33,263 nt of DNA from Gelidibacter maritimus (GTDB taxonomy: Bacteria; Bacteroidota; Bacteroidia; Flavobacteriales; Flavobacteriaceae), in the NCBI RefSeq assembly GCF_014062315.1, contig NZ_JACGLT010000024.1, forward strand, positions 1 to 33,263. Direction: 5' to 3'. The position numbers and the translations under genes are program-made. Positions 4-18,308 of the stretch are shown one piece after another (the stretch's first letter is position 1; every line of letters starts with the position of its first letter). The notes under the pieces were generated by a model. That model was not told the origin of the DNA, did no database searches, and saw only the letters and a list, made by a program, of their open reading frames with translations.

Positions 4-1861
4 GTGTGCCCAGTATGGGCATCTTTACCTTACTGCAAAGTAAGATATTAATTTAGAGGGTGCAAGTCCCTTATGCGCTGGAGTAACTTCTGGAAGCATT
101 AGTAAGTCGCAAGGGCGGTAACCGTGAGGTTATGTCTGAAGAAAGCGAGACTACAAAACTCGGTACTGACGAACAGGAACCGTATACAGAGGCATATTTA
201 CCTGGGTAAGCAAGCACATCATTGTAACGCCCAACGATTATCAAAAGGGTAAATATGTAGATACGGCAGGGATTGAGTGAAAGAAGATGTTCTTACCTGG
301 GGAGGTCTCCATAGCCACGTGTTGGCATAATGGAGAAGTCAGCAGAGGTCATAGTACTTATAGGAAACGAGCTGTGAAAACAAACCACAGAAGTCTCACA
401 GATAAGGAAGGACTGAACATTAGATTATGTTGGAATTTGATTGGGAAGCCTAGCTAGCCCCATCTTAGACCAACAGGAGTATTTACATTTTACTGACCCT
501 ATGATTGAAAAGGTATTAGAAGCAAAGAATCTTTATAAGGCGCAACGTAAAGTTGAGCGCAATAAGGGAGGGTGCGGAGTAGATGGTATGAAGACAACGG
601 AATTGGCTGCTTACATAGCAGAACACCGTGACGACCTACTATCTTCTATACGCACACACCGCTATGTACCAGACCCGATTTTAGGGGTTTCCATTCCAAA
701 AGGTATGGGTAAGACCAGACTTTTAGGGATTCCAACAGTAGTGGATCGATGGCTACAACAATCGGTAAACCAACAGTTGATGGTTGAGTTCGAATATGAA
801 TTTGAACCGCTCAGCTATGGTTTCCGCCCCAATAAGAACCTGCACAAAGCAGTACTACAAGCCCAGCAGTATATCAATACTGGATATCAGGACATTGTAG
901 ATATTGATTTACAAGGGTTCTTTGACGAGGTAGACCATATGCGATTACTGCAACTTATTTACAATAAGGTAAAATGCCCAACTACCTTGCGTCTAATCCG
1001 AAAATGGCTACGAGCGCCCATACGTATCAATGGACGGCTCGAGAAACGCCGAAAGGGAATACCGCAGGGAAGCCCTTTGAGTCCATTACTATCTAATATT
1101 TTGTTAGATGTACTGGATAAGCATATGGAGTCGAAAGGACTGCTCTATGTTCGCTATGCGGATGATTTTAGTGTTTACACTAGGAGCAAGAGCGAGGCAA
1201 AAAGGATAGGTAATGAGCTGTATATCTTTTTAAGGGATGCACTCAGGTTGCCTATTAACAAAGCCAAGAGCGGAATTCGCAGACCTGTACATTTCGAACT
1301 GCTTGGACACGGTTTTGTACCTGTCTACAAAAAGGGAACAAAAGGGCAGTATCAATTAGTTGTATCACAAAAGAGTTGGGGCAAGTTTAAACGCACGTTA
1401 AAGCGTATTACGCAGAAGACCAGGCCTATATCGCTGTTAGAACGGCTTGGACGGCTCAATGAAGTCTGTCGGGGATGGATTAACAACTATCGGCTGACCC
1501 AGAGTTATGCTAAACTTAAAAAGCTAGATGCTTGGTTAAGAAACCGATTGCGATATTGTATTTGGCACGATTGGAAAAAGCTGGAACGTAAACGTAAAAA
1601 CCTTATTAGATTGGGGATAGAGCAAGGGCAAGCGTATGCTTGGAGTAGAACCCGAATGGGAGGATGGGCAACAGCCCAAAGCCCTATTTTAAAAACTACC
1701 GTAACCATCTCCAGACTCAAACGAAAAGGCTATAAACCGCTAGGAGATTACATCGATAGAGCGCAAACTTTAATCTGGTGAACCGCCGTATACGAGACCC
1801 GTACGTACGGTGGTGTGAGAGGCGCAGTGGCGACCGTTAGGTCGTCACCCGTCTACTCGAT
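4..1861 (+). mobile_element. Group II intron, chloroplast-like (CL) type, apparently full length
   Basis: A self-splicing retroelement RNA. The 5' end reads GTGTGCCCAGTATGGGC from base 4, matching the GUGYG start of group II introns; base 2 is a possible alternative. About 435 nt of structured RNA (domains I-III) precede the maturase ORF, which lies in domain IV. Domain V follows at about 1781-1814, with a stem of CCGCCGTA against TACGGTGG. Domain VI has a 9-bp hairpin (GTGGCGACC, loop GTTA, GGTCGTCAC). The likely branch-point A is at 1855, and the 3' end CTACTCGAT closes at 1861. The domain V sequence and this 3' end are typical of CL-class bacterial introns. The 5' exon is outside the window, so the target site cannot be read. 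All expected parts are present, so the element may still be active. Confidence 0.9.
441..1781 (+). CDS. ltrA: Group II intron-encoded reverse transcriptase/maturase
   Basis: The protein helps the intron RNA fold and splice, and copies it into DNA during retrohoming. The RT domain covers about residues 60-290, with the fingers motif LSYGFRPN (124-131), IPQGSPLSP (207-215) and the catalytic YADD (239-242). The maturase X domain is at about 310-430 and contains RGWINNYR. No HNH endonuclease domain follows X, so mobility would depend on target nicking by another route or on replication forks. The length of 446 aa fits an endonuclease-less protein. The start is uncertain: 441 is TTG directly after an in-frame stop, ATG 501 (residue 21) is an alternative, and an ATG at 427 in another frame meets a stop after eight codons. 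The stop codon overlaps the start of domain V, as is common in compact introns. Confidence 0.93.
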   Translation: MGSLASPILDQQEYLHFTDPMIEKVLEAKNLYKAQRKVERNKGGCGVDGMKTTELAAYIAEHRDDLLSSIRTHRYVPDPILGVSIPKGMGKTRLLGIPTVVDRWLQQSVNQQLMVEFEYEFEPLSYGFRPNKNLHKAVLQAQQYINTGYQDIVDIDLQGFFDEVDHMRLLQLIYNKVKCPTTLRLIRKWLRAPIRINGRLEKRRKGIPQGSPLSPLLSNILLDVLDKHMESKGLLYVRYADDFSVYTRSKSEAKRIGNELYIFLRDALRLPINKAKSGIRRPVHFELLGHGFVPVYKKGTKGQYQLVVSQKSWGKFKRTLKRITQKTRPISLLERLGRLNEVCRGWINNYRLTQSYAKLKKLDAWLRNRLRYCIWHDWKKLERKRKNLIRLGIEQGQAYAWSRTRMGGWATAQSPILKTTVTISRLKRKGYKPLGDYIDRAQTLIW

Positions 1862-8744: not shown

Positions 8745-9512
8745 ATGACAGTGACGGAGTTTAGACCCATAATAAAAGTAATTGAAGAAGCGTATGAGAT
8801 CCCGCATCTGAAGGCCACACGTAAGATTTCGGCCTTGTTGCCACACGATTATTACACCACAGATAAGCACTATCCGGTGTTATATCTTCAGGACGGACAG
8901 AATTTGTTCAACCCCATGGCCCCATTTGGCGATTGGGCGATTGATAAATCTTTGGAAAAATTGGCGCAGGACGGTTTTAGCGATGTAATTATTATTGCCA
9001 TTGACCACGGTAATCATGAGCGCATCAATGAATATTTGCCGTATTACCATCCGCGTTATGGCGAAGGGAAAGGTAATTTCTACATCCAATTCATCATTGA
9101 GAAACTGATTCCGTACATCAATAAAAATTACAGAACGCTCACCGATTTTGAAAATACGGGTATTGGCGGCAGTTCTTTGGGCGGGTTGATCAGTTTGTAT
9201 GCAGGTTTGCAGAATCCAGGCGTGTTTGGGAAGATGATGATCTTTTCACCAAGCCTTTGGATTTCAAAAACCATATTCAACCAGACCACATCGTTTAAGC
9301 CTTTACGAAAATCAAAAATCTACCTTTATTCTGGTGGCATGGAAAGCTCTGAGCATTTGCCAAATGCCCAAAGATTAGAGGCCATTTTTAGAGAAAAAAT
9401 GGAACAGAACCACGATATTGAGTTTAAATTCTCAGTCAATGAAATAGGCGTTCACGCCGAAATATACTGGAGACATGAGTTTCCGAAAGCTGTTAAATGG
9501 CTTTATTTTTAG
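8745..9512 (+). CDS. Esterase D-type alpha/beta hydrolase
   Basis: 255 aa without signal peptide. The fold markers are YPVLYLQDGQNLF (43-55), the nucleophile elbow GGSSLGG with Ser144, an acidic candidate at E200 in SGGMESSE, and the catalytic His candidate H237 in GVHAEIYW. This is the putative-esterase (Fes/EstD-like) family that cleaves small carboxyl esters and, in some members, siderophore or formyl-glutathione esters. It leads the plus-strand half of the ligase cluster, 71 nt before the aminopeptidase gene. A second, unrelated-sequence esterase is the first gene of the facing operon, which suggests hydrolysis of an ester or amide intermediate is part of the pathway. Confidence 0.85.
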   Translation: MTVTEFRPIIKVIEEAYEIPHLKATRKISALLPHDYYTTDKHYPVLYLQDGQNLFNPMAPFGDWAIDKSLEKLAQDGFSDVIIIAIDHGNHERINEYLPYYHPRYGEGKGNFYIQFIIEKLIPYINKNYRTLTDFENTGIGGSSLGGLISLYAGLQNPGVFGKMMIFSPSLWISKTIFNQTTSFKPLRKSKIYLYSGGMESSEHLPNAQRLEAIFREKMEQNHDIEFKFSVNEIGVHAEIYWRHEFPKAVKWLYF

Positions 9513-9583
9513 AACAAAGTACTAAGTATCAAAAATTAAGTGCTCAGTATCAAGTGTCCAAATATTGAGAAATATTAAATGCT
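9513..9583. repeat. Short degenerate direct repeats of AGTACTAAGTATCAA type
   Basis: The 71-nt gap contains AGTACTAAGTATCAA and then AGTGCTCAGTATCAAGTG, two copies of one degenerate motif. A related stretch, TTAAGTATTAGGTGTCAAG, is at 21059-21077. These look like dispersed non-coding filler rather than an operator. Confidence 0.4.
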
Positions 9584-10996
9584 ATGATTTTTAAACACGT
9601 TTCAAAAGTAAATACAAATCAGGATGTGATTGTGCCTTGCAGAAAGGACCAATTGGAACATCTCAAACAATTTATAACTATTGAAAAGCCGGATTTTGAT
9701 GGCGAATTCTCAACCGTTCAAATGCTTTATGGTGCGGAAGGGAACAGGGTTTATCTGTTGGGTCTGGGAGAAGAAAAAGATGCTGTAAAAATTGATGAGG
9801 CCTTTAGAAAACTCAGCTTCGATCATAAAAAATATTGGAAAACTGCTATACAGGTGGTTGCAACCGATCTATCGGATGCAGAACTTCAGAAAGCAATCAT
9901 CGGACTTGAAATGTCGGCCTATGAGATAGGTACGTTTAAAACAAAGAAGGACGAGGTCAATGCCATTACTTTCGAGATTGTCAATTCAAAAGATATTACA
10001 ACAATTCTTGAAGAAGCAAAAGCCATTGGTGCAACCATTAATCGGATCAAAACTTTGGTAGATGCTCCCGCGAATCAGAAAACACCTGAATTCTTGGGCC
10101 AATGGGCTAAGGATTCCGCAACGGATTCAAATTATAAATGTACCGTTCTTGACGAAAAAGAACTCAAGGCACAGGGTTTCAATGCAGTTTTGTCGGTAGG
10201 GCAGGGCAGTGTCAATCCGCCAGTAGTCATCGTAACGGAATACATGCCAAAAAAGGACAGTGCAGTGGATATTGGTTTGGTCGGTAAAGGCATCACCTTT
10301 GATACAGGCGGTCTGTCCATAAAACCCTCCACAAATTTACACTATATGAAGAGTGATATGGGTGGCGCTGCAGTGGTGTTGGGTGTTGTGGAGTTGGTGG
10401 CAAAATTAAAGCTTAATGTCAATCTTGTAGGGATTGTCGCTTCCGCGGAAAATGCTGTGGATAGTAATAGTTACAGGCCTGGCGATGTCATTGACAGTTA
10501 TTCAGGGAAAACTATTGAAATCATCGATACCGATGCTGAAGGCCGATTGGTGCTGGCTGATGGTTTGAGTTATATGATCAAAGCATTTCAACCAAAACAA
10601 CTGATTGACTTGGCCACCTTGACAGGAAGTGTGGTACAGACCTTGGGCTATTCGGCTGCGGGCATGTTTACCAATAACACACAAATGGCCGAAAAACTCT
10701 CCAAAATAGGCTTTGATACCAACGAGCGGGTGTGGCCATTGCCATTGTTTGCCGATTATGAGAGCGATTTGCACAGTGATATTGCCGATTTGAGAAACTT
10801 TAGCGGGAAGCCTGTGGCAGGTGCCATTACCGCTGCTAAATTTTTAGAAGCATTTACCGACGAGCACAAGGCCTGGATGCATTTAGATATCGCAGGGGTT
10901 TCTTTTGGCGATTCTCCGTATTCAAAAATGAAAAGTGCCAGTGGATTTGGTGTGCAATTAATTACAAATTATATTAAGGAGATAGCGGGGAATTAA
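9584..10996 (+). CDS. pepA: Leucyl aminopeptidase, M17 family
   Basis: 470 aa cytosolic dimetal aminopeptidase that removes N-terminal residues from peptides. The signature NTDAEGRL-type motif is present as IIDTDAEGRL. All active-site residues are visible with the spacing of E. coli PepA: metal ligands K235, D240, D258, D317 and E319, and catalytic K247 and R321. The N-terminal regulatory domain (about 1-150) is shorter than in PepA. M17 enzymes also hydrolyse Cys-Gly and other dipeptides, so its place between an esterase and an ATP-grasp ligase fits trimming or recycling of the cluster's peptide product. The gaps of 71 and 122 nt make co-transcription plausible but not certain. Confidence 0.93.
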   Translation: MIFKHVSKVNTNQDVIVPCRKDQLEHLKQFITIEKPDFDGEFSTVQMLYGAEGNRVYLLGLGEEKDAVKIDEAFRKLSFDHKKYWKTAIQVVATDLSDAELQKAIIGLEMSAYEIGTFKTKKDEVNAITFEIVNSKDITTILEEAKAIGATINRIKTLVDAPANQKTPEFLGQWAKDSATDSNYKCTVLDEKELKAQGFNAVLSVGQGSVNPPVVIVTEYMPKKDSAVDIGLVGKGITFDTGGLSIKPSTNLHYMKSDMGGAAVVLGVVELVAKLKLNVNLVGIVASAENAVDSNSYRPGDVIDSYSGKTIEIIDTDAEGRLVLADGLSYMIKAFQPKQLIDLATLTGSVVQTLGYSAAGMFTNNTQMAEKLSKIGFDTNERVWPLPLFADYESDLHSDIADLRNFSGKPVAGAITAAKFLEAFTDEHKAWMHLDIAGVSFGDSPYSKMKSASGFGVQLITNYIKEIAGN

Positions 10997-11118
10997 GGCT
11001 TTATTTTGTATTTTGTATCAAAATATAGATGTATAACTTTTTAGCTTCACTTTTTTAAATCTTAAATCATTTTTGGTTTTAGAGGTTCAAAAATCCGCTA
11101 GTCAAACTCCATAATACT

Positions 11119-12321
11119 ATGTCAAATAAACGACCACTTAATTTTTTATGCGTAACCACGTATCACAAAGGCGCTGATTTTATTAAAAGCTGTAAGGCCG
11201 AAGGTAACAATGTCTATCTCTTGACCAAGAAACAGCTCGAACATGAGGTTTGGCCGTGGGAAGCTATTGATGATGTGTTTTATGTGGATAACTGGAACCA
11301 AAGTGATGTGACCAAAGGGATTGCCTATAAATTCAGAACGATCAAATTTGACCGATTTGTAGCCTTGGACGATTTTGACGTCGAAAAAGTAGCATTGTTG
11401 CGTGAGCATTTTAGAATGCCTGGTATGGGTCGGACCACCTCACATTATTTTAGAGATAAATTGGCCATGCGTACCAAAGCATTATCCGAAGGCATTAATG
11501 TGCCGGAATTTACGGCCTTGTTTCATGATGTGGATATCAATGCTTATGCCGATCGTGTGAGTCCGCCTTGGTTGTTGAAGCCCCGTTTGGAAGCTTCGGC
11601 CACTGGAATCCGTAAAATCAATAGCAGGGAAGAGTTGTGGCAAATTGTCAATGTGCTGAAAGATGAGCGCGATAATTACTTGATCGAAAAATTTGCGCCC
11701 GGTGATGTGTATCACGTGGACAGTTTGATTGTTGATGGGAAGGTTGTTTTTTCTCGAGCCAGCAAATATTTGGACACGCCATTTGAGGTTGCTCACGGTG
11801 GTGGTGTCTTTAGATCGGCTACTTGCGAAATAGGATCTAAAATTGATAAGGCCCTTAATAAAATGAATGCTGATGTTATGAAGGCCTTCGGGATGCAGTT
11901 TGGGGCGTCGCATACAGAATTTATTGCATCAAAGGAAACTGGGGAACTGTTTTTTCTGGAAACATCTTCAAGAGTCGGTGGTGCGAATTTAGCCGAAATG
12001 GTGGAGTTTGCTTCAGGAATCAATCTCTGGGGCGAATGGGCACGGATTGAATCAGCGTCCCTTAGAAAAGAAACTTATACACTGCCAAAAGTTAAGAATC
12101 AACACGCGGGAATCGTCGTGTCTCTAAGCAAATTCGAGAATCCTGATACATCCAGTTTCAACGATTCTGAGATTGTTTGGAAAATGGATAAAAAATGGCA
12201 TATCGGGATGATTGTGGCATCAGACAGTAGCGACCGCGTTATGGAGCTACTGGATAACTATACCCAACGGATTGCTTCAGATTTTCATGCAAGTATCCCG
12301 GCCCCGGATAAGAGTCTGTAG
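11119..12321 (+). CDS. ATP-grasp carboxylate-amine ligase
   Basis: 400 aa. A pre-ATP-grasp Rossmann-like domain (about 1-100) is followed by the ATP-grasp fold: FRDKLAMRTKALSEG with K114, WLLKPRLEASATGI with K154 contacting ATP, YLIEKFAPG with E190, and the metal-binding pair E267 (HTEFI) and E281 (FLETSSRVGG). The ETSSRxGG ending resembles the ExNxRxGG motif of carbamoyl-phosphate synthase-like and D-Ala-D-Ala-like ligases. The enzyme should activate a carboxylate as acyl-phosphate and join it to an amine. The C-terminal ~90 residues form an extra small domain. Substrates cannot be read from the sequence. It is the last gene before the convergent repeat region. Confidence 0.85.
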   Translation: MSNKRPLNFLCVTTYHKGADFIKSCKAEGNNVYLLTKKQLEHEVWPWEAIDDVFYVDNWNQSDVTKGIAYKFRTIKFDRFVALDDFDVEKVALLREHFRMPGMGRTTSHYFRDKLAMRTKALSEGINVPEFTALFHDVDINAYADRVSPPWLLKPRLEASATGIRKINSREELWQIVNVLKDERDNYLIEKFAPGDVYHVDSLIVDGKVVFSRASKYLDTPFEVAHGGGVFRSATCEIGSKIDKALNKMNADVMKAFGMQFGASHTEFIASKETGELFFLETSSRVGGANLAEMVEFASGINLWGEWARIESASLRKETYTLPKVKNQHAGIVVSLSKFENPDTSSFNDSEIVWKMDKKWHIGMIVASDSSDRVMELLDNYTQRIASDFHASIPAPDKSL

Positions 12322-12579
12322 TTTAGTTAAGGATTAGGGATTAGGTGTTGAGATTAGATACTTCATAGTTCAAAAGAAGGTCACAATAACATTGGAGTGT
12401 CATTGCGATATGAACGTTCTGCATTGTATTGCTCTGCGTAAATCTGCGAAATCTACGAGAAATTAACCGATATAACATATCTGACTACACCCATGTTTTC
12501 GAGATTGGAAGGCTAATGTCTGAAGTTATTCAATCTGTGGTGATTACTGTTGGGAGGTGACTGAAAAAAGTAGATCTCA
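12322..12579. other. Non-coding DNA at convergent operon ends
   Basis: No ORF or stable terminator is visible. The segment contains short simple repeats (GGATTAGGGATTAGGTG at 12331) and CTGCGTAAATCTGCGAAATC at 12433, which resembles the repeat vocabulary of the next 800 bp. Confidence 0.4.
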
Positions 12580-12612
12580 ATTTGTTGAGGTTCTTACGCA
12601 GAGTTACACAAA

Positions 12613-12644
12613 CCTAACTGCCGGCGAGGCAGGGGAGGCACAAC
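12613..12644. repeat. Small hairpin insertion in a repeat leader
   Basis: Thirty-two bases containing the stem CTGCC/GGCAG (618-622 with 628-632 of the 12000s) interrupt the leader. They are bracketed by the identical 10-mer GTTACACAAA at 12603 and 12645. The second leader copy (13070) has the 10-mer region only once and lacks the insert, so this looks like an inserted REP-like element with target duplication. Confidence 0.55.
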
Positions 12645-13331
12645 GTTACACAAAGAGATTTTGCTGTATATAGACGAATTAACGTAATTTTTCAATCCGT
12701 GAAAATCCGTGTAATTTGTGTCTAAAAAAAATCAATGTAAATCATAAACAATCCGCGTCTTCTGCGATCCAAAAGATGAGAATTCTAACTTATTAAAGCG
12801 ATAAGTTTAATCTATATCTCAATTTAAAATCGGTGAAATTTTTCAACCGGTAAAAATCCGTGTAATTTGTGTCTAAAAAAATCAGTGTAAATCATAAACA
12901 ATCCGCGTCTTCTGCGACCCAATAAGATGAGAATTCTAACTTATTAAAGCGAAAAGTTTATTCTATATCTCAATTTAAAATTGGTGAAATTTCTCAATCC
13001 GTGAAAATCCGTGCAATTTGTGTCTAAAAAAAGGTAAATCTCAATTAGTTGAGATTGAGTTCTTACGCAGACTTACACAAAGAGATTTTGCTGTATATAG
13101 AGGAATTAACGCAATTTTTCAATCCGTGGAAATCCGTATAATTTGTGTCTAAAAAAATCAGTGTAAATCATAAACAATCCGCGTCTTCTGCGATCCAAAA
13201 GATGAGAATTCTAACTTATTAAAGCGAAAAGTTTATTCTATATCTCAATTTAAAATCGGTGAAATTTCTCAATCCGTGAAAATCCGTGTAATTCGTGTCT
13301 GAAAAAATCAGTGTAAATCATAAACAATCCG

Positions 13332-13361
13332 CATCACCCGCCTGAACATACGAGCAGGTCC
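13332..13361. repeat. Second hairpin insertion in the last repeat unit
   Basis: In other units ATCCGCGTCTTCTGCGATCC is continuous. Here the GTCTTCT segment is replaced by a longer stretch containing CCTG ... CAGG arms around AACATACGAG. The sequence differs from the first insertion but its place within a repeat unit is analogous. Confidence 0.45.
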
Positions 13362-13374
13362 GCGATCCATCAAA

Positions 13375-14574
13375 TCAAGGCTCAAAAAACCCCGTACTAC
13401 CGCCAACCCAAGTTTTATCCTTATTGTATTTGACTCCCACCATTTCTCCTTTACTGAGACGTATCAGATTACTGACAATTTGAGTCGTGTTGGTTTTGCT
13501 ATTATGAAGCAACATCATTCGGATTTCACATTTCGCAGGGTCATCCATAGTTTCGATAATGGGCGCATAGGCCACTTTTTCCTGCAACAGATAATTCGAT
13601 TTATCTTCAACAGCAGCAATCATTGCTTTATCCACATGAATCTGCACCCCGGCACCCGCAAAAGAATAGAGAGGTTTGAGCACATAATTCTCTAAATCGG
13701 TGGGAATGGTTTCAAGCTTGTCCAAATAGTAGGACTTCGGCACATAATCGCCCTTTAGCAATGGCATTGTGTACTTACTAATCCTGAAAAACCAATTCGG
13801 ATGTCCAATCCATTCAATATCGACCTCGTCTTTAAAGTCGAATTCGCGAACTAAATCCGGTCGTTGGTCCAATTCGTCAAAAATAATGCGGTTGTAAATC
13901 TTAAGTACCTGAACTTCGGAGCCATTATCATCTTTGTAAAATAATTGCTTACCTCTTTTAATCAGTTTGGAAATACACAATACCTTGATGTCCAATAAGG
14001 CTTCAGTAGCGAAAAAATCAATGGCCGTGGCCTGTTTTTCAGGTTCAATCTCTAAAAGAATAACCTGTTTTGGGTCGGTGTCGCCAACAATTTCTGTACG
14101 CAATAATTCGATATAATCTTCTGAAGACAAACCCTTAAGATGCTGTGAGAAATTTTCGGGAATGCCGTCATAATGCTTACGATACATACTGCCTACCAGT
14201 TCTTGGAAGAAATAGAGCGAAGGAAAGCCTTGAAGTTCTATCAACTTTGGTGTTAACTTGCCATTGTCATCCAAACAGACACCAAAATCCAATTGTATAA
14301 ATTTGGAATGGTCATCTTCATTGGGCACTCTCATACTGTCCTTAAAAAATGCACCTTCCGTCAGTTCCTTAAAATTGGGCTGATTGATGACTTTCATAAT
14401 GTCCTCACAAGCTTCCACCAATTTCGTTTTCAATTCCTTGGGAATGAATACTGGTGTTTCGGCAATTTTGAACTGTGGTGTATAGTCAAATTGGTCGATG
14501 ATATCTGCCAACATTCCGGCATATTTTTCTTCAGAAAATTGAGCGTTAAACGCCTGGCGTAAGGAAGCAATCAT
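13375..14574 (-). CDS. ATP-grasp-like ligase, family unnamed
   Basis: 399 aa that I cannot assign to a named family. The second half shows ATP-grasp features: HPNWFFRISKYTMPLL (258-273), a vPksyyLdkl segment, NYVLKPLYSFAGAGV with K300 in the position of the ATP-binding lysine, YLLQEKV with E332, and CEIRMMLL with R352. The first half contains LDFGVCLDD and LIELQGFPSLYFF (111-123), reminiscent of the pre-ATP-grasp part of glutathionylspermidine-synthase-like proteins. The C-terminus ends abruptly at GGSTGFFEP without a clear second metal-binding Glu/Asn pair, so it may be a divergent or partly inactive ligase. It starts 6 nt after the amidotransferase stop, so the two are translated from one transcript. 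It is the last gene of the minus-strand operon. Confidence 0.65.
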   Translation of the reverse strand: MIASLRQAFNAQFSEEKYAGMLADIIDQFDYTPQFKIAETPVFIPKELKTKLVEACEDIMKVINQPNFKELTEGAFFKDSMRVPNEDDHSKFIQLDFGVCLDDNGKLTPKLIELQGFPSLYFFQELVGSMYRKHYDGIPENFSQHLKGLSSEDYIELLRTEIVGDTDPKQVILLEIEPEKQATAIDFFATEALLDIKVLCISKLIKRGKQLFYKDDNGSEVQVLKIYNRIIFDELDQRPDLVREFDFKDEVDIEWIGHPNWFFRISKYTMPLLKGDYVPKSYYLDKLETIPTDLENYVLKPLYSFAGAGVQIHVDKAMIAAVEDKSNYLLQEKVAYAPIIETMDDPAKCEIRMMLLHNSKTNTTQIVSNLIRLSKGEMVGVKYNKDKTWVGGSTGFFEP

Positions 14575-14580
14575 AATATA

Positions 14581-15399
14581 TTATGAGATTAATTGAGGTG
14601 AAAGTTGTTTCATGGCCCGTTCAATGAACTTTGGTAGAATGATTTTATGGGTCCTGATGATTTTATCTGGATCATCCATCTTCTCCATCATATCATCGTA
14701 TTTCTCTTCGCCAAAATTGGCAATCACTTTTAACTTATTGGCATCTGCAAGAAAATGGGCTCTCATGCCGACGGGATCAGCCTCCGGATGAAATTGCGTG
14801 CCAACAAATTCTTTAGAAAAACGAACCGCCATTATGGCACGTTCATAACTGACGTGACTTCGGATCTTTTCAAGGCTTAAAATGGAAGCGCCTTGTTCTT
14901 TAAAAACCTTTAACCTTGGCTGTACCAACTGCCAGTCGCGCGAATCTACCGCATAAAACGGATCGTCCAAGCCTTCTAGGAGTGGGTCTGTTAAGCCAGC
15001 TTTTGTTTTGTGAATGGGTAAAACACCAAAGGAAGTGCTCCGTCTTGGTTTCATTTCTCCCAATTTAAAATAGTCGCACACTACCTGAAACGAGTAACAG
15101 ATAAAGAACATATATTTCTTTTGGTGCTGTGAGGATTTATTAAAATCCCACAGGTCCTGTACCAAATTCAGATATGGAATCCGCCATGGTCCATCTTCCA
15201 GCGGACTGTCAGGTCCACCACTCGAAATATAAATATCAAAAGAGGTGTCAGGTATTTCCTCTGCACCTCTGACGTTGAATATGGTATAATCCACTTCATC
15301 TTTAAAGCCACTAACGATATCGGCAATACAACGCAAACCCTGATTGGGTTGGTTGTTGTTCATATCAAGAATGGCTACTTTAAATTTTTCTTTAAGCAT
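14581..15399 (-). CDS. Class I glutamine amidotransferase (GMP synthase-type GATase)
   Basis: 272 aa. The triad can be placed: nucleophile C101 in FFICYSFQ, and H204 and E206 in TQFHPEAD. An SSGGPDS oxyanion-type loop (59-65) precedes them. The elbow is unusual: ICYSFQ replaces the usual GxCxGxQ, with both glycines lost. The domain should release ammonia from glutamine, or be a peptidase-like relative acting on a gamma-glutamyl bond. A ~65-residue helical C-terminal tail follows the domain. It lies 10 nt after the GCS2 gene and 6 nt before the ATP-grasp-like gene, so ammonia or a gamma-glutamyl product could be passed between them. Confidence 0.83.
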   Translation of the reverse strand: MLKEKFKVAILDMNNNQPNQGLRCIADIVSGFKDEVDYTIFNVRGAEEIPDTSFDIYISSGGPDSPLEDGPWRIPYLNLVQDLWDFNKSSQHQKKYMFFICYSFQVVCDYFKLGEMKPRRSTSFGVLPIHKTKAGLTDPLLEGLDDPFYAVDSRDWQLVQPRLKVFKEQGASILSLEKIRSHVSYERAIMAVRFSKEFVGTQFHPEADPVGMRAHFLADANKLKVIANFGEEKYDDMMEKMDDPDKIIRTHKIILPKFIERAMKQLSPQLIS

Positions 15400-15409
15400 G
15401 TAATTTTTT

Positions 15410-16549
15410 CTAAGTTCCTAAAATGGTCTGGTCAATAACATAGTCCACCACTTTAGTTAAATCCTTGGTCTCCTCGAAAACGGCGAGCTGCCTGTCGGCT
15501 CCTGTACCGTTTTTGATCATGGTTTTAACGTGTTCTATTTCCTTTCGGGAACCGAGCTCATCCACAACATCATCTACGAAATCAAGCAATTCGAGCATTA
15601 AATCTTTTGTGTTTACTTCACATTCCTTGCCAAAGTCGATCATACTGCCATCAAGTCCGTATCTGCTGGCGCGCCATTTGTTTTCATTGATCAAGGCACG
15701 ATGGTAGAGCATGAAATTGAGATTTTGTTTTCTCAGCTTATAAAGTTTAGCGACCAAGGCTTGAATTAATGCGGCAATGCTTAGGGTTTCCTCGATGGTC
15801 ATTGGGACATCACAAATACGTACTTCCAAAGTTGGGAAGAACGGATGCATACGGATGTCCCACCAAATTTTCTTGGGATTGTCAATACATTTCGTTTTGA
15901 TTAATATGTCTATATAATGCTCATATTCGGCAACAGTTTGGAAGACTCCTGGAATTCCTGTTCTCGGAAATTTATCAAAAACTTTTGAACGAAACGATTT
16001 GAAACCCGTATTGCGGCCTTCCCAAAACGGCGAATTGGTTGATAAGGCATATAAATGTGGTAAAAAATAACGCATGGCGTTGGTTAAATGTAAGGACAAT
16101 TGCTTGTCTTCAATCCCCACATGTACATGGAGCCCAAAAATTAAGTTAGAACGTGCCGTATCTTGAAGTTCGTTGACAATCTCATCATAACGCGGGTTGG
16201 GCGTTATCAGCTGGGTCTGCCATTTTGTAAATGGATGTGTTCCCGCAGCACCAATCTTGAAACCCAAAGAGTTGGCAATTTCAGAAATGGATTTACGCAA
16301 ATGGGTAAGGTCCTCTCTGGCCTCATGAATATCCTGACAGATATTGGTGCCAACTTCCACTACTGCTTGGTGCATTTCTGCCTTGACCTGGTCATTTAAG
16401 ATTTTTGCCGCTTGGGAAACAATTTGTTGGTCATGCGAGATGAGCTCTCGCGTATCTGGACAAATGACCTGGTACTCCTCTTCAATGCCTAATGTGAATT
16501 TCATAAAATTGGATGAATTATTTGATAGTTTCCAGTCCCGAAACGTCAA
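15410..16549 (-). CDS. Carboxylate-amine ligase, GCS2/YbdK family
   Basis: A glutamate-cysteine ligase type 2 relative that joins an amine to a carboxylate, classically gamma-glutamyl bond formation. Motifs are LGIEEEYQV (20-28), SNLIFGLHVHVG (134-145), PFWEGRNTG, WWDIRMHPFFPTLEVRICD (209-227) and NKWRASRYGLDG. The whole family length is present. The longest frame opens at 16549, but the family normally begins with FTLGIEEEYQ, so ATG 16504 (residue 16) is the likelier start; this would leave 66 nt after the ATP-grasp gene. YbdK of E. coli has weak glutamate-cysteine ligase activity, and the natural substrates of most members are unknown. Confidence 0.9.
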   Translation of the reverse strand: MTFRDWKLSNNSSNFMKFTLGIEEEYQVICPDTRELISHDQQIVSQAAKILNDQVKAEMHQAVVEVGTNICQDIHEAREDLTHLRKSISEIANSLGFKIGAAGTHPFTKWQTQLITPNPRYDEIVNELQDTARSNLIFGLHVHVGIEDKQLSLHLTNAMRYFLPHLYALSTNSPFWEGRNTGFKSFRSKVFDKFPRTGIPGVFQTVAEYEHYIDILIKTKCIDNPKKIWWDIRMHPFFPTLEVRICDVPMTIEETLSIAALIQALVAKLYKLRKQNLNFMLYHRALINENKWRASRYGLDGSMIDFGKECEVNTKDLMLELLDFVDDVVDELGSRKEIEHVKTMIKNGTGADRQLAVFEETKDLTKVVDYVIDQTILGT

Positions 16550-16570
16550 GACGGATAGCTTATTGAATTT

Positions 16571-17533
16571 TTATTTATAAACGGTCTTTTTACCCGTAAT
16601 CTGATCTTTGACAAAGGTGCCCCATGTCAGGTTCATTTTATCTTTTTTATATTGTTTGGCCTTGTCAATGGCCATATTGGCAGCATTTTCAACAATCCAG
16701 TCGAAATTTTCCTGGCCTACAGAATTGATATCCGCATCCGGCGCAGGATTGCAAAAATCAATAGCATACGGGATGCCATCGCGAATGGCAAATTCTACCG
16801 TATTGAAATCGTAGCCCAAAGCCTTATTCAAACGAATACAATATTTTTTGACCAAATCTAAAATTTCTTGCTTCACCGGAGGGCCGTCAATGACATAGCG
16901 CAAATGATGTGGGTTTCTCGGTTCGTATTGCATGATATGGACGTTATCCGTATTCAAGACATAACATCTGAAATATTCCGTAAAATTGATTTCCTCTTGG
17001 AGCATCATGACCAAGTTTTCTGTCTCGCCATGTTTTTTCCATAAATCTTGCGGATTCTCAACACGGTACACACTCTTCCAACCCCCGCCGTCATGAGGTT
17101 TCATATAGGCCGGAAAGCCAATGGTATCAAACATGTGTTCCCAAGCAAATGGGAATTTCATATTTCTAAAGGAGTTTTCATCGGTGTCCGGTGGACGATG
17201 AGAGGTTGGTAAAATGAAGGTTTTCGGAACAGGAACACCAACTTTCTCAGCCAGTGCGTTGTTGAAAAACTTTTCATCTGCACTCCACCAAAAAGGGTTG
17301 TTGATGACCGCAGTTCCTGAAATGGCCGCATTTTTAAGATAAGCGCGATAAAATGGAACGTCCTGAGAAATCCTATCTATAATAACTGCGTAATCTGTTG
17401 GCTTAGCCTGCTCTACCATGTCAATAGTAACAGCTTCTGCCATAATGCCTTTTGCCTTTTTTTCATTAACACGATCTATAAATGCTTGTGGGAACGTGTT
17501 TTCTTGTCCGAATAGGATGCCTATTTTTTTCAT
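16571..17533 (-). CDS. ATP-grasp ligase, RimK/D-Ala-D-Ala-like
   Basis: 320 aa. The pre-ATP-grasp domain (1-80) is followed by ADEKFFNNALAEKVGVPVP with K88, GFPAYMKPHDGGGWKSV with K145 and a glycine-rich loop (149-151), MMLQEEINF with E180/E181, and the metal site E247 (TVEFA), D259 and N262 (IDFCNPAPD). All ATP and Mg contacts needed for acyl-phosphate chemistry appear intact. It is clearly distinct in sequence from the ligases at 11119 and 13375. It is followed closely by the GCS2 gene and preceded by the esterase gene with a 70-nt gap. Acceptor and donor substrates are unknown. Confidence 0.87.
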   Translation of the reverse strand: MKKIGILFGQENTFPQAFIDRVNEKKAKGIMAEAVTIDMVEQAKPTDYAVIIDRISQDVPFYRAYLKNAAISGTAVINNPFWWSADEKFFNNALAEKVGVPVPKTFILPTSHRPPDTDENSFRNMKFPFAWEHMFDTIGFPAYMKPHDGGGWKSVYRVENPQDLWKKHGETENLVMMLQEEINFTEYFRCYVLNTDNVHIMQYEPRNPHHLRYVIDGPPVKQEILDLVKKYCIRLNKALGYDFNTVEFAIRDGIPYAIDFCNPAPDADINSVGQENFDWIVENAANMAIDKAKQYKKDKMNLTWGTFVKDQITGKKTVYK

Positions 17534-17603
17534 AAATTAGAGTTTTATTCATTTCCTTATTGGAGGAAATCTATTTAATATCTGGTTGTTTGTTTTTTTG
17601 TGT

Positions 17604-18308
17604 CTAAAGTTTTGAGAGATATTCCGGGAACATTTGACGCCATAAGGGCCAATCGTGTTTTGCCCATTTACGTACATCATACCAAAAAGGTATATTCTTA
17701 TCGCGCAGTATTTTAGCCATCTGATCATTGGCTTCCAAACAAATATCCCATTCGCCAACGCCGAGAATAATTTTCATCTTCCATAAGTCTGGGTGATTAT
17801 TGCCCGGGAGATAGTCTATGGGGTTGTTAAAAAATACGTTGTCATCATAATGACGCCCAACAAACGAGGTAATGTCAAATGCACCGCTCATACTGAACAT
17901 ATGGCTGACTTTCTCAGGATGTTTAAATGCGAAATTTGACGCTTGATAACCGCCAAAACTCGGACCTGCGACCGCCACTTTTGGCAAACCTTTCTGATGA
18001 CAAATCGAATTGACCACTTCATTCAATATAAACTGATCGTACCAATTATGGTTTTTGGCCCGTTGTGCGGGATGGATTTGTTTGTTGTACCAACTCAGTT
18101 CGTTAATGCCGTCTGGACAGTAAATCTGTACTTTGCCTTGTTCAACAAACCATCGGACGGATTCCACAAGTTTCATGTCTTTACATTCATTGTGTTTGCC
18201 CATAGTTGTAGGGAAAAGTATGACAGGATACCCTGAATGCCCAAAAACAAGCATTTCTATGTCTTTACTGAGGGTTGGCGAATACCATTTGTGATGTTGT
18301 TCTTTCAA
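17604..18308 (-). CDS. Esterase-family alpha/beta hydrolase (COG4947-like)
   Basis: 234 aa, no signal peptide. The nucleophile elbow is AVAGPSFGGYQ with Ser117; likely partners are D188 in GVGEWD and H218 in WAKHDWP. The early MLVFGHSGYPVILFPTTMG segment supplies the oxyanion-hole region. It resembles the small esterases grouped as COG4947, of unknown substrate. It is the promoter-proximal gene of the five-gene minus-strand set, so a hydrolytic step is co-expressed with two ATP-grasp proteins, a GCS2 ligase and an amidotransferase. Confidence 0.83.
   Translation of the reverse strand: MKEQHHKWYSPTLSKDIEMLVFGHSGYPVILFPTTMGKHNECKDMKLVESVRWFVEQGKVQIYCPDGINELSWYNKQIHPAQRAKNHNWYDQFILNEVVNSICHQKGLPKVAVAGPSFGGYQASNFAFKHPEKVSHMFSMSGAFDITSFVGRHYDDNVFFNNPIDYLPGNNHPDLWKMKIILGVGEWDICLEANDQMAKILRDKNIPFWYDVRKWAKHDWPLWRQMFPEYLSKL

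Follow-up and report, generated by a model that had tools for sequence, protein, structure and literature searches.

A set of amide-ligase genes coupled by order and phyletic distribution in Gelidibacter maritimus and other Bacteroidota, a probable pathway to a small peptide or peptide-amine conjugate

At a locus of Gelidibacter maritimus and in other Bacteroidota, genes for several amide ligases are coupled by their order and their phyletic distribution, and their obligatory core consists of the ATP-grasp ligase AGc and a ligase of the glutathione-synthetase superfamily, either AGb or a circularly permuted (CP) ATP-grasp. We consider it probable that they constitute an amide-ligase pathway independent of ribosome, carrier protein and precursor, by which one small peptide or peptide-amine conjugate is built and, probably, turned over; the main ligases are kept together even when their genes are scattered, and it is therefore one small molecule that would be made.

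Organization of the locus

The window, i.e. the whole stretch of DNA analysed (33,263 nucleotides of contig NZ_JACGLT010000024.1), contains the eight ORFs listed below, all verified at these coordinates and strands and all with family matches. They form the two convergent sets described by an earlier sequence-only reading of this DNA, Est1-PepA-AGa on the plus strand converging on Est2-AGc-GCS2-GAT-AGb on the minus strand.

8745 to 9512, plus strand: Est1, putative esterase (PF00756, by Pfam), with a conserved GGSSxG stretch that we take to be the nucleophile motif
9584 to 10996, plus strand: PepA-like aminopeptidase (Peptidase_M17 profile match; TDAEGR stretch conserved)
11119 to 12321, plus strand: AGa, ATP-grasp ligase (ATP-grasp_4, 27.5 bits for a cut-off of 27)
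12322 to 13374: intergenic stretch separating the convergent halves, holding a 151-bp tandem repeat (12686-13032)
13375 to 14574, minus strand: AGb, ATP-grasp with a predicted glutathione synthetase / glutathionylspermidine synthetase / YgiC fold (structure model and weak GSP_synth match)
14581 to 15399, minus strand: GAT, class I glutamine-amidotransferase-like protein (Pfam GATase class I)
15410 to 16549, minus strand: GCS2 carboxylate-amine ligase of the PRK13515/YbdK family (GCS2 and PRK13515 profiles), which more probably starts at an ATG at 16504
16571 to 17533, minus strand: AGc, RimK/D-Ala-D-Ala-ligase-like ATP-grasp (RimK and R2K_2 matches, all sub-threshold)
17604 to 18308, minus strand: Est2, esterase-type alpha/beta hydrolase, which opens the minus-strand operon and is listed among the ORFs with a TTG start

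Residues C101, H204 and E206 of GAT are invariant across 31 aligned sequences. As the sequence-only reading had stated, no carrier-protein family was recognised, here among the 28 proteins of the window scanned with Pfam. The PADLOC models of anti-phage defence matched none of the eight proteins at E ≤ 0.001, and a tblastn search of a plasmid collection with AGb and AGc gave no match.

Conservation of gene order and neighbourhood

The gene set is more than a product of chance. Among 120 loci (L002-L121), comprising the best 80 of 593 and 40 chosen for spread from 72 places, AGc, GCS2, GAT and AGb occur together in 74 and all eight families in 12; eight genes make too narrow a unit, PepA and Est1 being optional. 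The operon order is Est2, AGc, GCS2, GAT and AGb, successive genes being separated by medians of 33, 33, 46 and 6 bp (n = 84, 95, 75 and 80), and in one locus (L089) all eight genes are co-directional in a single run.

A scan for precursor genes covered 269 ATG-started ORFs of 19-91 aa located in gaps of 60-3000 bp. No group of these ORFs is common to more than three loci, which agrees with the absence of a ribosomal precursor claimed beforehand, and the six largest groups sit in gaps holding M29 or CP genes. Since ORF calling was crude (longest frames), a gene missing from a locus is a less reliable observation than one that is present. The AGc model resembles PsnB and MdnC, from which graspetide (RiPP) clusters come to mind; a conserved precursor ORF is however missing from the scanned gaps, and the assignment to a graspetide cluster was rejected on this test.

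Apart from the genes of the set and another esterase (Est3), no recurrent family is found in more than 19 of the best 80 of the 593 loci, and these neighbour families mostly reflect genus-level synteny. The one present in 19 loci, a MiaB-type methylthiotransferase by eye, occurs in several genera and lies several kb off in the example. No polyamine gene was recognised by eye among the recurrent neighbours, and GAT loci without AGc nearby share no partner across families. A thioredoxin-like gene is present in 9 of the best 80 loci, mostly from Dyadobacter and several kb off in the example. In six loci of the f23 lineage, a ResA/TlpA-like thiol-disulfide oxidoreductase (family tested on L167) is encoded on the strand opposite to AGb, at a distance of 4-34 bp. 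In the same lineage AGc adjoins a histidine-ammonia-lyase-like gene and GCS2 an S10 carboxypeptidase, and in the f20 lineage GCS2 adjoins bshA (L202-L204); these differences between lineages were counted against a single pathway.

Co-occurrence in 198 Bacteroidota genomes

Five ligase/GAT genes were searched, of which AGc is found most widely, in 72 of 198 genomes, followed by GCS2 (62), AGb (60), GAT (50) and AGa (43), at thresholds of E ≤ 1e-60 for AGa and 1e-20 or 1e-25 for the others. The distributions are nested, AGc being absent from none of the 43 genomes with AGa, one of the 50 with GAT, two of the 60 with AGb and four of the 62 with GCS2; the hypergeometric p-values for co-occurrence ignore phylogeny. 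One exception (G154), whose genes lie well within a 21.6-kb contig, has GCS2, GAT and AGb but no AGc, another (G144) has GCS2 and AGb, and the two further AGc-less genomes with GCS2 (G004 and G167) hold GCS2 relatives of 36-41% identity.

The cut-off for “true” AGc, at least 48% identity, was set after the data were seen and retains 69 genomes, since the matches in G007 and G087 (32%) and in G160 (42%) were treated as paralogues. These genomes represent 24 families of the sample (25 counting weaker relatives), and the linkage and absence counts that follow cover them, the four AGc-less genomes standing outside. All 69 possess either AGb (58) or a CP-ATP-grasp (11), and GCS2 is missing from 11, GAT from 20 and AGa from 26. 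The obligatory core therefore excludes GCS2, and because each of GCS2, GAT and AGa is missing from some genomes, the products of the sets may be related rather than identical, or more than one pathway may be served. Of the ribosome-independent gamma-glutamyl synthesis initially proposed, the ligase set lacking precursor and carrier is retained, and the gamma-glutamyl chemistry is kept as plausible.

Scattered genes occur in several families, for example in genome G137: AGc and AGb lie within 6 kb of each other in 34 of 58 genomes, AGc and AGa within 40 kb in just 10 of 43. The sequence-only reading had named two observations that would speak against it, genes lying apart in relatives, which is half the case here, and unrelated distributions of the two halves, which is clearly not; its view that a number of amide ligases work together is upheld by the coupled order and the nested co-occurrence. 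In family f15, every genome with AGc (7 of 7) carries AGa, GAT, AGb and GCS2, and none of these genes is present in the six without AGc (Fisher 5.8e-4 for each gene); AGa and GAT lie away from AGc there. This comparison is the sole within-family test of unlinked genes, and its six AGc-negative genomes are those visible in one M29 search listing. Scattering would suit a chance neighbourhood of unrelated housekeeping enzymes, a very improbable reading already contradicted by the near-perfect nesting despite scatter, the CP-ATP-grasp standing in for AGb in exactly those AGc genomes that lack it (see below) and the co-directional run of L089, and which a biased genome sample alone could restore.

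M29 relatives of 62-100% identity were found in two of the 198 genomes, both belonging to module genomes without GAT; M29 was rejected as a general substitute for GAT, the other 20 matched genomes holding paralogues of 27-31%.

AGc, GCS2 and AGa

AGc scores 22.4 bits against Pfam R2K_2, below the cut-off of 26.2, and could not be assigned to the R2K clade. Among the structures matched by its model are RimK with RpsF and LysX/ArgX with LysW, which would fit a tagging system where a cellular protein receives amino acids or peptides from AGc and its partners and loses them again through GAT and PepA. D-Ala-D-Ala ligases are nevertheless equally among the matches, no conserved small protein partner occurs in the scanned gaps, and four different ligases exceed, to our knowledge, the number used by known tagging systems, so we regard protein tagging as improbable.

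GCS2 belongs to the PRK13515/YbdK family, with a full-length match of 538.8 bits (curated NCBIfam cut-off 371) and E 3e-50 to PDB 1r8g; we know of no such neighbours for ybdK in E. coli. The nearest PDB entry to AGa is an L-amino acid ligase (4wd3, E 5e-21, a relation in sequence). The RizA/BL00235 ligases, closest solved relatives of AGa, are stand-alone dipeptide makers; AGa, unlike them, is nested in the AGc distribution and adjoins PepA in 8 of 35 AGa loci.

AGb and its circularly permuted replacement

Previously described as ATP-grasp-like, AGb is, judging from its structure model (mean pLDDT 92.9), a real ATP-grasp ligase with the glutathione-synthetase fold: all 22 PDB chains matched at E ≤ 0.001 belong to the glutathione-synthetase superfamily. 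They include YgiC, YjfC, E. coli glutathionylspermidine synthetase (Gss) and trypanothione synthetase; synthetases of glutathione and homoglutathione, whose added residue is glycine or beta-alanine, are also among them. AGb shares with this group the fold and a similar ATP-loop stretch (KPLYSFAGAGV, for KPIFSREGANV in YgiC). It differs by an identity of 10-18%, by its position among other ligases and by having no second domain detectable by Pfam. Moreover, the profile match with YgiC is weak (E 0.02; hhalign probability 31%), and the Arg of the R-x-D stretch common to YgiC, YjfC and Gss, where it has a catalytic role, is missing by eye. By its Pfam score AGb falls outside the glutathionylspermidine synthase family in the strict sense, with 15.9 bits against GSP_synth for a gathering score of 29.3 (E 0.008).

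These matches raise the possibility, a sub-case of the amide-ligase pathway, of a peptide-polyamine conjugate, in which GCS2 would make a gamma-glutamyl peptide, to be extended by AGc and AGa, capped with (homo)spermidine by AGb and cleaved by GAT or M29. The names given to YgiC and YjfC are in its favour, peptide--spermidine ligases in RefSeq and peptidylpolyamine synthetases in PMC12568646. It is rather unlikely in view of the glutathione and homoglutathione synthetases in the same match list, the sub-threshold GSP_synth score, the lack of polyamine genes recognised by eye among recurrent neighbours and the dispensability of GCS2.

GCS2 together with a glutathione-synthetase fold also evokes the two-step logic of glutathione synthesis. 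In a glutathione-like low-molecular-weight thiol pathway, GCS2 would make gamma-Glu-Cys or similar, AGb add the last residue, the M17 PepA degrade the product and the PF00756 esterases hydrolyse thioesters; bshA beside GCS2 and the redox and thioredoxin-like genes described above are consistent with it. Conversely, GCS2 cannot be its obligatory first enzyme in the genomes lacking it, and bshC is present in all 19 module genomes checked (G. maritimus and 18 of 18 others), which makes a glutathione substitute less likely. The occurrence of N-methyl-bacillithiol in a Polaribacter, reported in PMC6282198, was likewise counted against the thiol pathway, which we hold to be quite unlikely.

The CP-ATP-grasp is found in 12 of the 198 genomes, and 11 of these are exactly the 11 with AGc (at least 48% identity) and without AGb, where it always lies between AGc and GAT. 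The protein matches 3n6x (E 1e-9), the third match of the AGb model. Among 12 genomes (that of G. maritimus and the 11 with the CP variant), 11 lack the Alpha-E partner (PF04168) and the single match is on a contig other than that of the module; an Alpha-E / circularly permuted ATP-grasp peptide system was rejected on this test.

Proposed pathway

The best reading is an amide-ligase pathway in which two ligations are obligatory, one by AGc and one by AGb or the protein replacing it; GCS2 usually and AGa often take part as well, together with exchangeable hydrolases. From the chemistry of their families, AGc and AGb would each activate a carboxylate as an acyl phosphate for condensation with an amine, and GCS2 may form one further carboxylate-amine bond, gamma-glutamyl by family precedent; a gamma-glutamyl chemistry of the product is plausible. 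AGa, where present (43 of 69 genomes), would add an L-amino acid, and GAT (or an M29 metallopeptidase instead), PepA and the esterases would hydrolyse the product, conjugates or intermediates. Most speculatively, AGb might add an amine, for instance a polyamine, as a cap to the peptide, like its fold relatives glutathionylspermidine synthetase and YgiC/YjfC.

Amidoligase neighbourhoods combining ATP-grasp and other amidoligases with peptidases, the same general idea, were reportedly predicted by Iyer et al. in 2009. No assigned product for this gene set was found in the literature searched, which did not cover that work.

Conclusions

It is possible, although we advance it tentatively, that the set represents an undescribed pathway distributed across Bacteroidota and their relatives, in which four different amide ligases, two of them constant and one of these exchangeable for a permuted analogue, make a new peptide-amine metabolite or cofactor from dispersed yet co-retained genes. 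Searches for natural products and cofactors mostly need physical clusters, whereas these ligases are co-retained though often unlinked; if confirmed, genome-cluster mining would miss such a pathway. The nested distribution and the exact exchange between AGb and the CP-ATP-grasp single out a short ordered list of genes and enzymes. The presence of AGc in 24 families and the co-retention of unlinked ligases suggest that steady selection maintains a metabolite in many Bacteroidota.

The eight genes of the set

The sequence-only reading had claimed eight ORFs within 8745-18308, all of which were found in place, in two convergent halves:

Est1, plus strand, esterase
PepA, plus strand, M17 aminopeptidase
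AGa, plus strand, ATP-grasp
Est2, minus strand, esterase (minus-strand genes in transcription order)
AGc, minus strand, RimK/D-Ala-D-Ala-ligase-like ATP-grasp
GCS, minus strand, GCS2 (YbdK/PRK13515)
GAT, minus strand, class I GATase-like
AGb, minus strand, ATP-grasp

The genome that contains the window is flavobacterial and near Gelidibacter. The AGc of the window shows 97-98% identity with those of two Gelidibacter species, and AGc, AGa, AGb, GCS and GAT each have a single match in their own genome at the cut-offs used. Judging from residue conservation, the enzymes look active, since Cys101, His204 and Glu206 of GAT are kept in 31/31 aligned sequences and the other members conserve stretches that we take to be ATP-loop and nucleophile motifs. 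The gap between the convergent halves (12322-13374) contains a tandem repeat with no long ORF (12686-13032, period 151, 2.3 copies); for two further Gelidibacter genomes (loci L002 and L003), tblastn coordinates suggest a gap of about 300-360 bp. A group II intron reverse transcriptase/maturase (RVT_1, GIIM) lies near the left end of the window (441-1781).

Gene order and linkage

The 120 loci compared comprise the best 80 of 593 and 40 chosen for spread from 72 AGc places; three of these 40 hold an AGc of 32-42% only, and many of the 120 stop at contig ends. Their recurrent arrangement is Est2>AGc>GCS>GAT>AGb, with AGc, GCS, GAT and AGb together in 74/120.

Median gaps between neighbouring operon genes (120 loci and the window)
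Est2-AGc, 33 bp, n=84
AGc-GCS, 33 bp, n=95
GCS-GAT, 46 bp, n=75
GAT-AGb, 6 bp, n=80

Several loci (e.g. L002-L008, L011, L017, L044 and L064) share with the window the convergent placement of AGa, PepA and Est1 relative to the operon, and L089 has all eight genes co-directional (Est1, PepA, AGa, Est2, AGc, GCS, GAT, AGb). Among 35 loci fetched around AGa, PepA adjoins it in 8, five of them also with Est1, and AGc shares the stretch in only one (L154). In two related genomes (G064 and G158; L164-L166 and L122), a block resembling by eye a polysaccharide-utilisation locus, with SusC/D-like proteins, a sugar ABC transporter and a GH130-like protein, separates the convergent halves. One copy of the operon (L068) sits on a contig attributed to a Bifidobacterium breve MAG, probably through mis-binning.

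Co-occurrence among Bacteroidota

Every gene was searched in the same 198 Bacteroidota genomes (completeness of at least 90%), which revealed AGc in 72, GCS in 62, AGb in 60, GAT in 50 and AGa in 43. AGa never occurs without AGc (0/43), and such occurrences are limited to 1/50 for GAT, 2/60 for AGb and 4/62 for GCS. The genes are coupled even where they are unlinked: AGa is within 40 kb of AGc in 10/43 genomes, and AGb is no more than 6 kb from it in 34/58. Because related genomes are not independent, a comparison was made within one family (f15), where each of AGa, GAT, AGb and GCS is carried by 7/7 genomes that have AGc and by 0/6 that lack it, the latter six being those among the matches listed in one search (Fisher 5.8e-4 each). 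AGa and GAT are away from AGc in this family (e.g. 1.3 and 1.8 Mb off in genome G124). Its unlinked GAT lies, in L209-L212, near an ORF resembling by eye an M24 (Xaa-Pro aminopeptidase type) protein.

Of the 19 genomes in the family of the window, four have AGc, and the same four plus G154 have AGb, GCS and GAT, which makes the set an accessory trait in this family; two of the 19 have AGa.

Replacement of AGb and of GAT

REPLACEMENTS. Of the 69 genomes whose AGc reaches 48% identity or more, 11 lack AGb. Exactly those 11 carry a circularly permuted ATP-grasp (CP-ATP-grasp; 52-100% identity to the query from L114), always between AGc and GAT, and the sole further match in the 198 genomes is one of 37% in G137, an AGb carrier. 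As CP-ATP-grasp fills the 11 AGb-less genomes and matches by sequence (E 1e-9) the structure 3n6x, also matched by the AGb model, AGc is accompanied by a ligase of the AGb superfamily in 58 + 11 = 69/69 genomes. GCS is missing in 11/69 and GAT in 20/69; in two of these 20 (G093 and G055) an M29 metallopeptidase takes the place of GAT, and L039 and L058 have an ORF of M29-like look there. Identity with the Alpha-E/CP-ATP-grasp system was rejected, Alpha-E being absent in 11/12 genomes; a PADLOC-type defence system was rejected as well, none of the eight proteins matching a PADLOC model at E<=0.001.

Relationships of the ligases

Sequence barely places AGb (GSP_synth E 0.008, YgiC E 0.02). The AlphaFold model of AGb, of high confidence (pLDDT 92.9), matches 22 PDB chains at E<=0.001, every one from the glutathione-synthetase superfamily: glutathione and homoglutathione synthetases, glutathionylspermidine and trypanothione synthetases, YgiC/YjfC, nematode glutathione-synthetase-like proteins, the fungal ligase Cp1B and 3n6x (putative glutathionylspermidine synthase). 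The AGc model (pLDDT 84.4) is about as similar to D-Ala-D-Ala ligases as it is to RimK, LysX/ArgX and graspetide ligases, and the nearest relatives of AGa are L-amino acid ligases.

Lineage-specific neighbours and the thiol question

In family f23 the module genes are unlinked, each with its own lineage-specific partner, whose family was assigned from one tested protein: an Amidohydro_3 enzyme for AGb (9 loci, 8 in f23 and one in f26), an S10 carboxypeptidase-like protein for GCS (9 loci, 8 genomes), and, for AGc, an LpxH-like phosphoesterase (5 loci, including one of f21) and a histidine-ammonia-lyase-like gene (5 loci). The latter gene is near AGc in L103, L104, L107, L108 and L113 (TIGR01225 over cut-off in L103, the one tested), several of which have the phosphoesterase on the other side of AGc. 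In f20 (L202-L204), a GCS2 relative of 46-47% identity lies about 107-122 bp after a bshA-like gene, a bacillithiol glycosyltransferase as tested on L202. The f23 and f20 partners may hint at substrates or reflect local synteny.

Replacement of glutathione by the module would fit the ResA/TlpA-like thiol-disulfide oxidoreductase facing AGb from the opposite strand, 4-34 bp away, in six f23 loci (L162, L167 and L170-L173; family tested on L167), and the thioredoxin-like gene in 9 of the best 80 loci, mostly of Dyadobacter. This role is nevertheless less likely, bshC being present in 19/19 module genomes picked, own included (a count covering module genomes only).

Proposed pathway and product

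The chemistry of the ATP-grasp and GCS2 families is to convert a carboxylate into an acyl phosphate and condense it with an amine. Two ligations would be common to all 69 genomes, by AGc and by AGb or its replacement; that of GCS2 would be usual and that of AGa would occur in 43. No conserved small precursor ORF was found in the gaps between module genes of the loci, and no carrier-protein family among the 28 window proteins scanned. With the two constant ligations, this makes a small peptide or peptide-amine conjugate built from free building blocks the likely product. A graspetide cluster was rejected by the same precursor test.

GAT, M29 and PepA belong to families of enzymes that cleave amides or peptides, and they probably trim the product or turn it over. 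The exchange of GAT for M29, in few cases, makes an amidase or peptidase role of GAT more likely than ammonia supply. Polyamine capping by AGb may be suggested by analogy with YgiC and YjfC, named peptide--spermidine ligases in RefSeq and termed peptidylpolyamine synthetases in PMC12568646.

No assigned product was found in the literature searched, which did not extend to Iyer et al. 2009, a work that may mention some parts of the neighbourhood. A new product is a real possibility.
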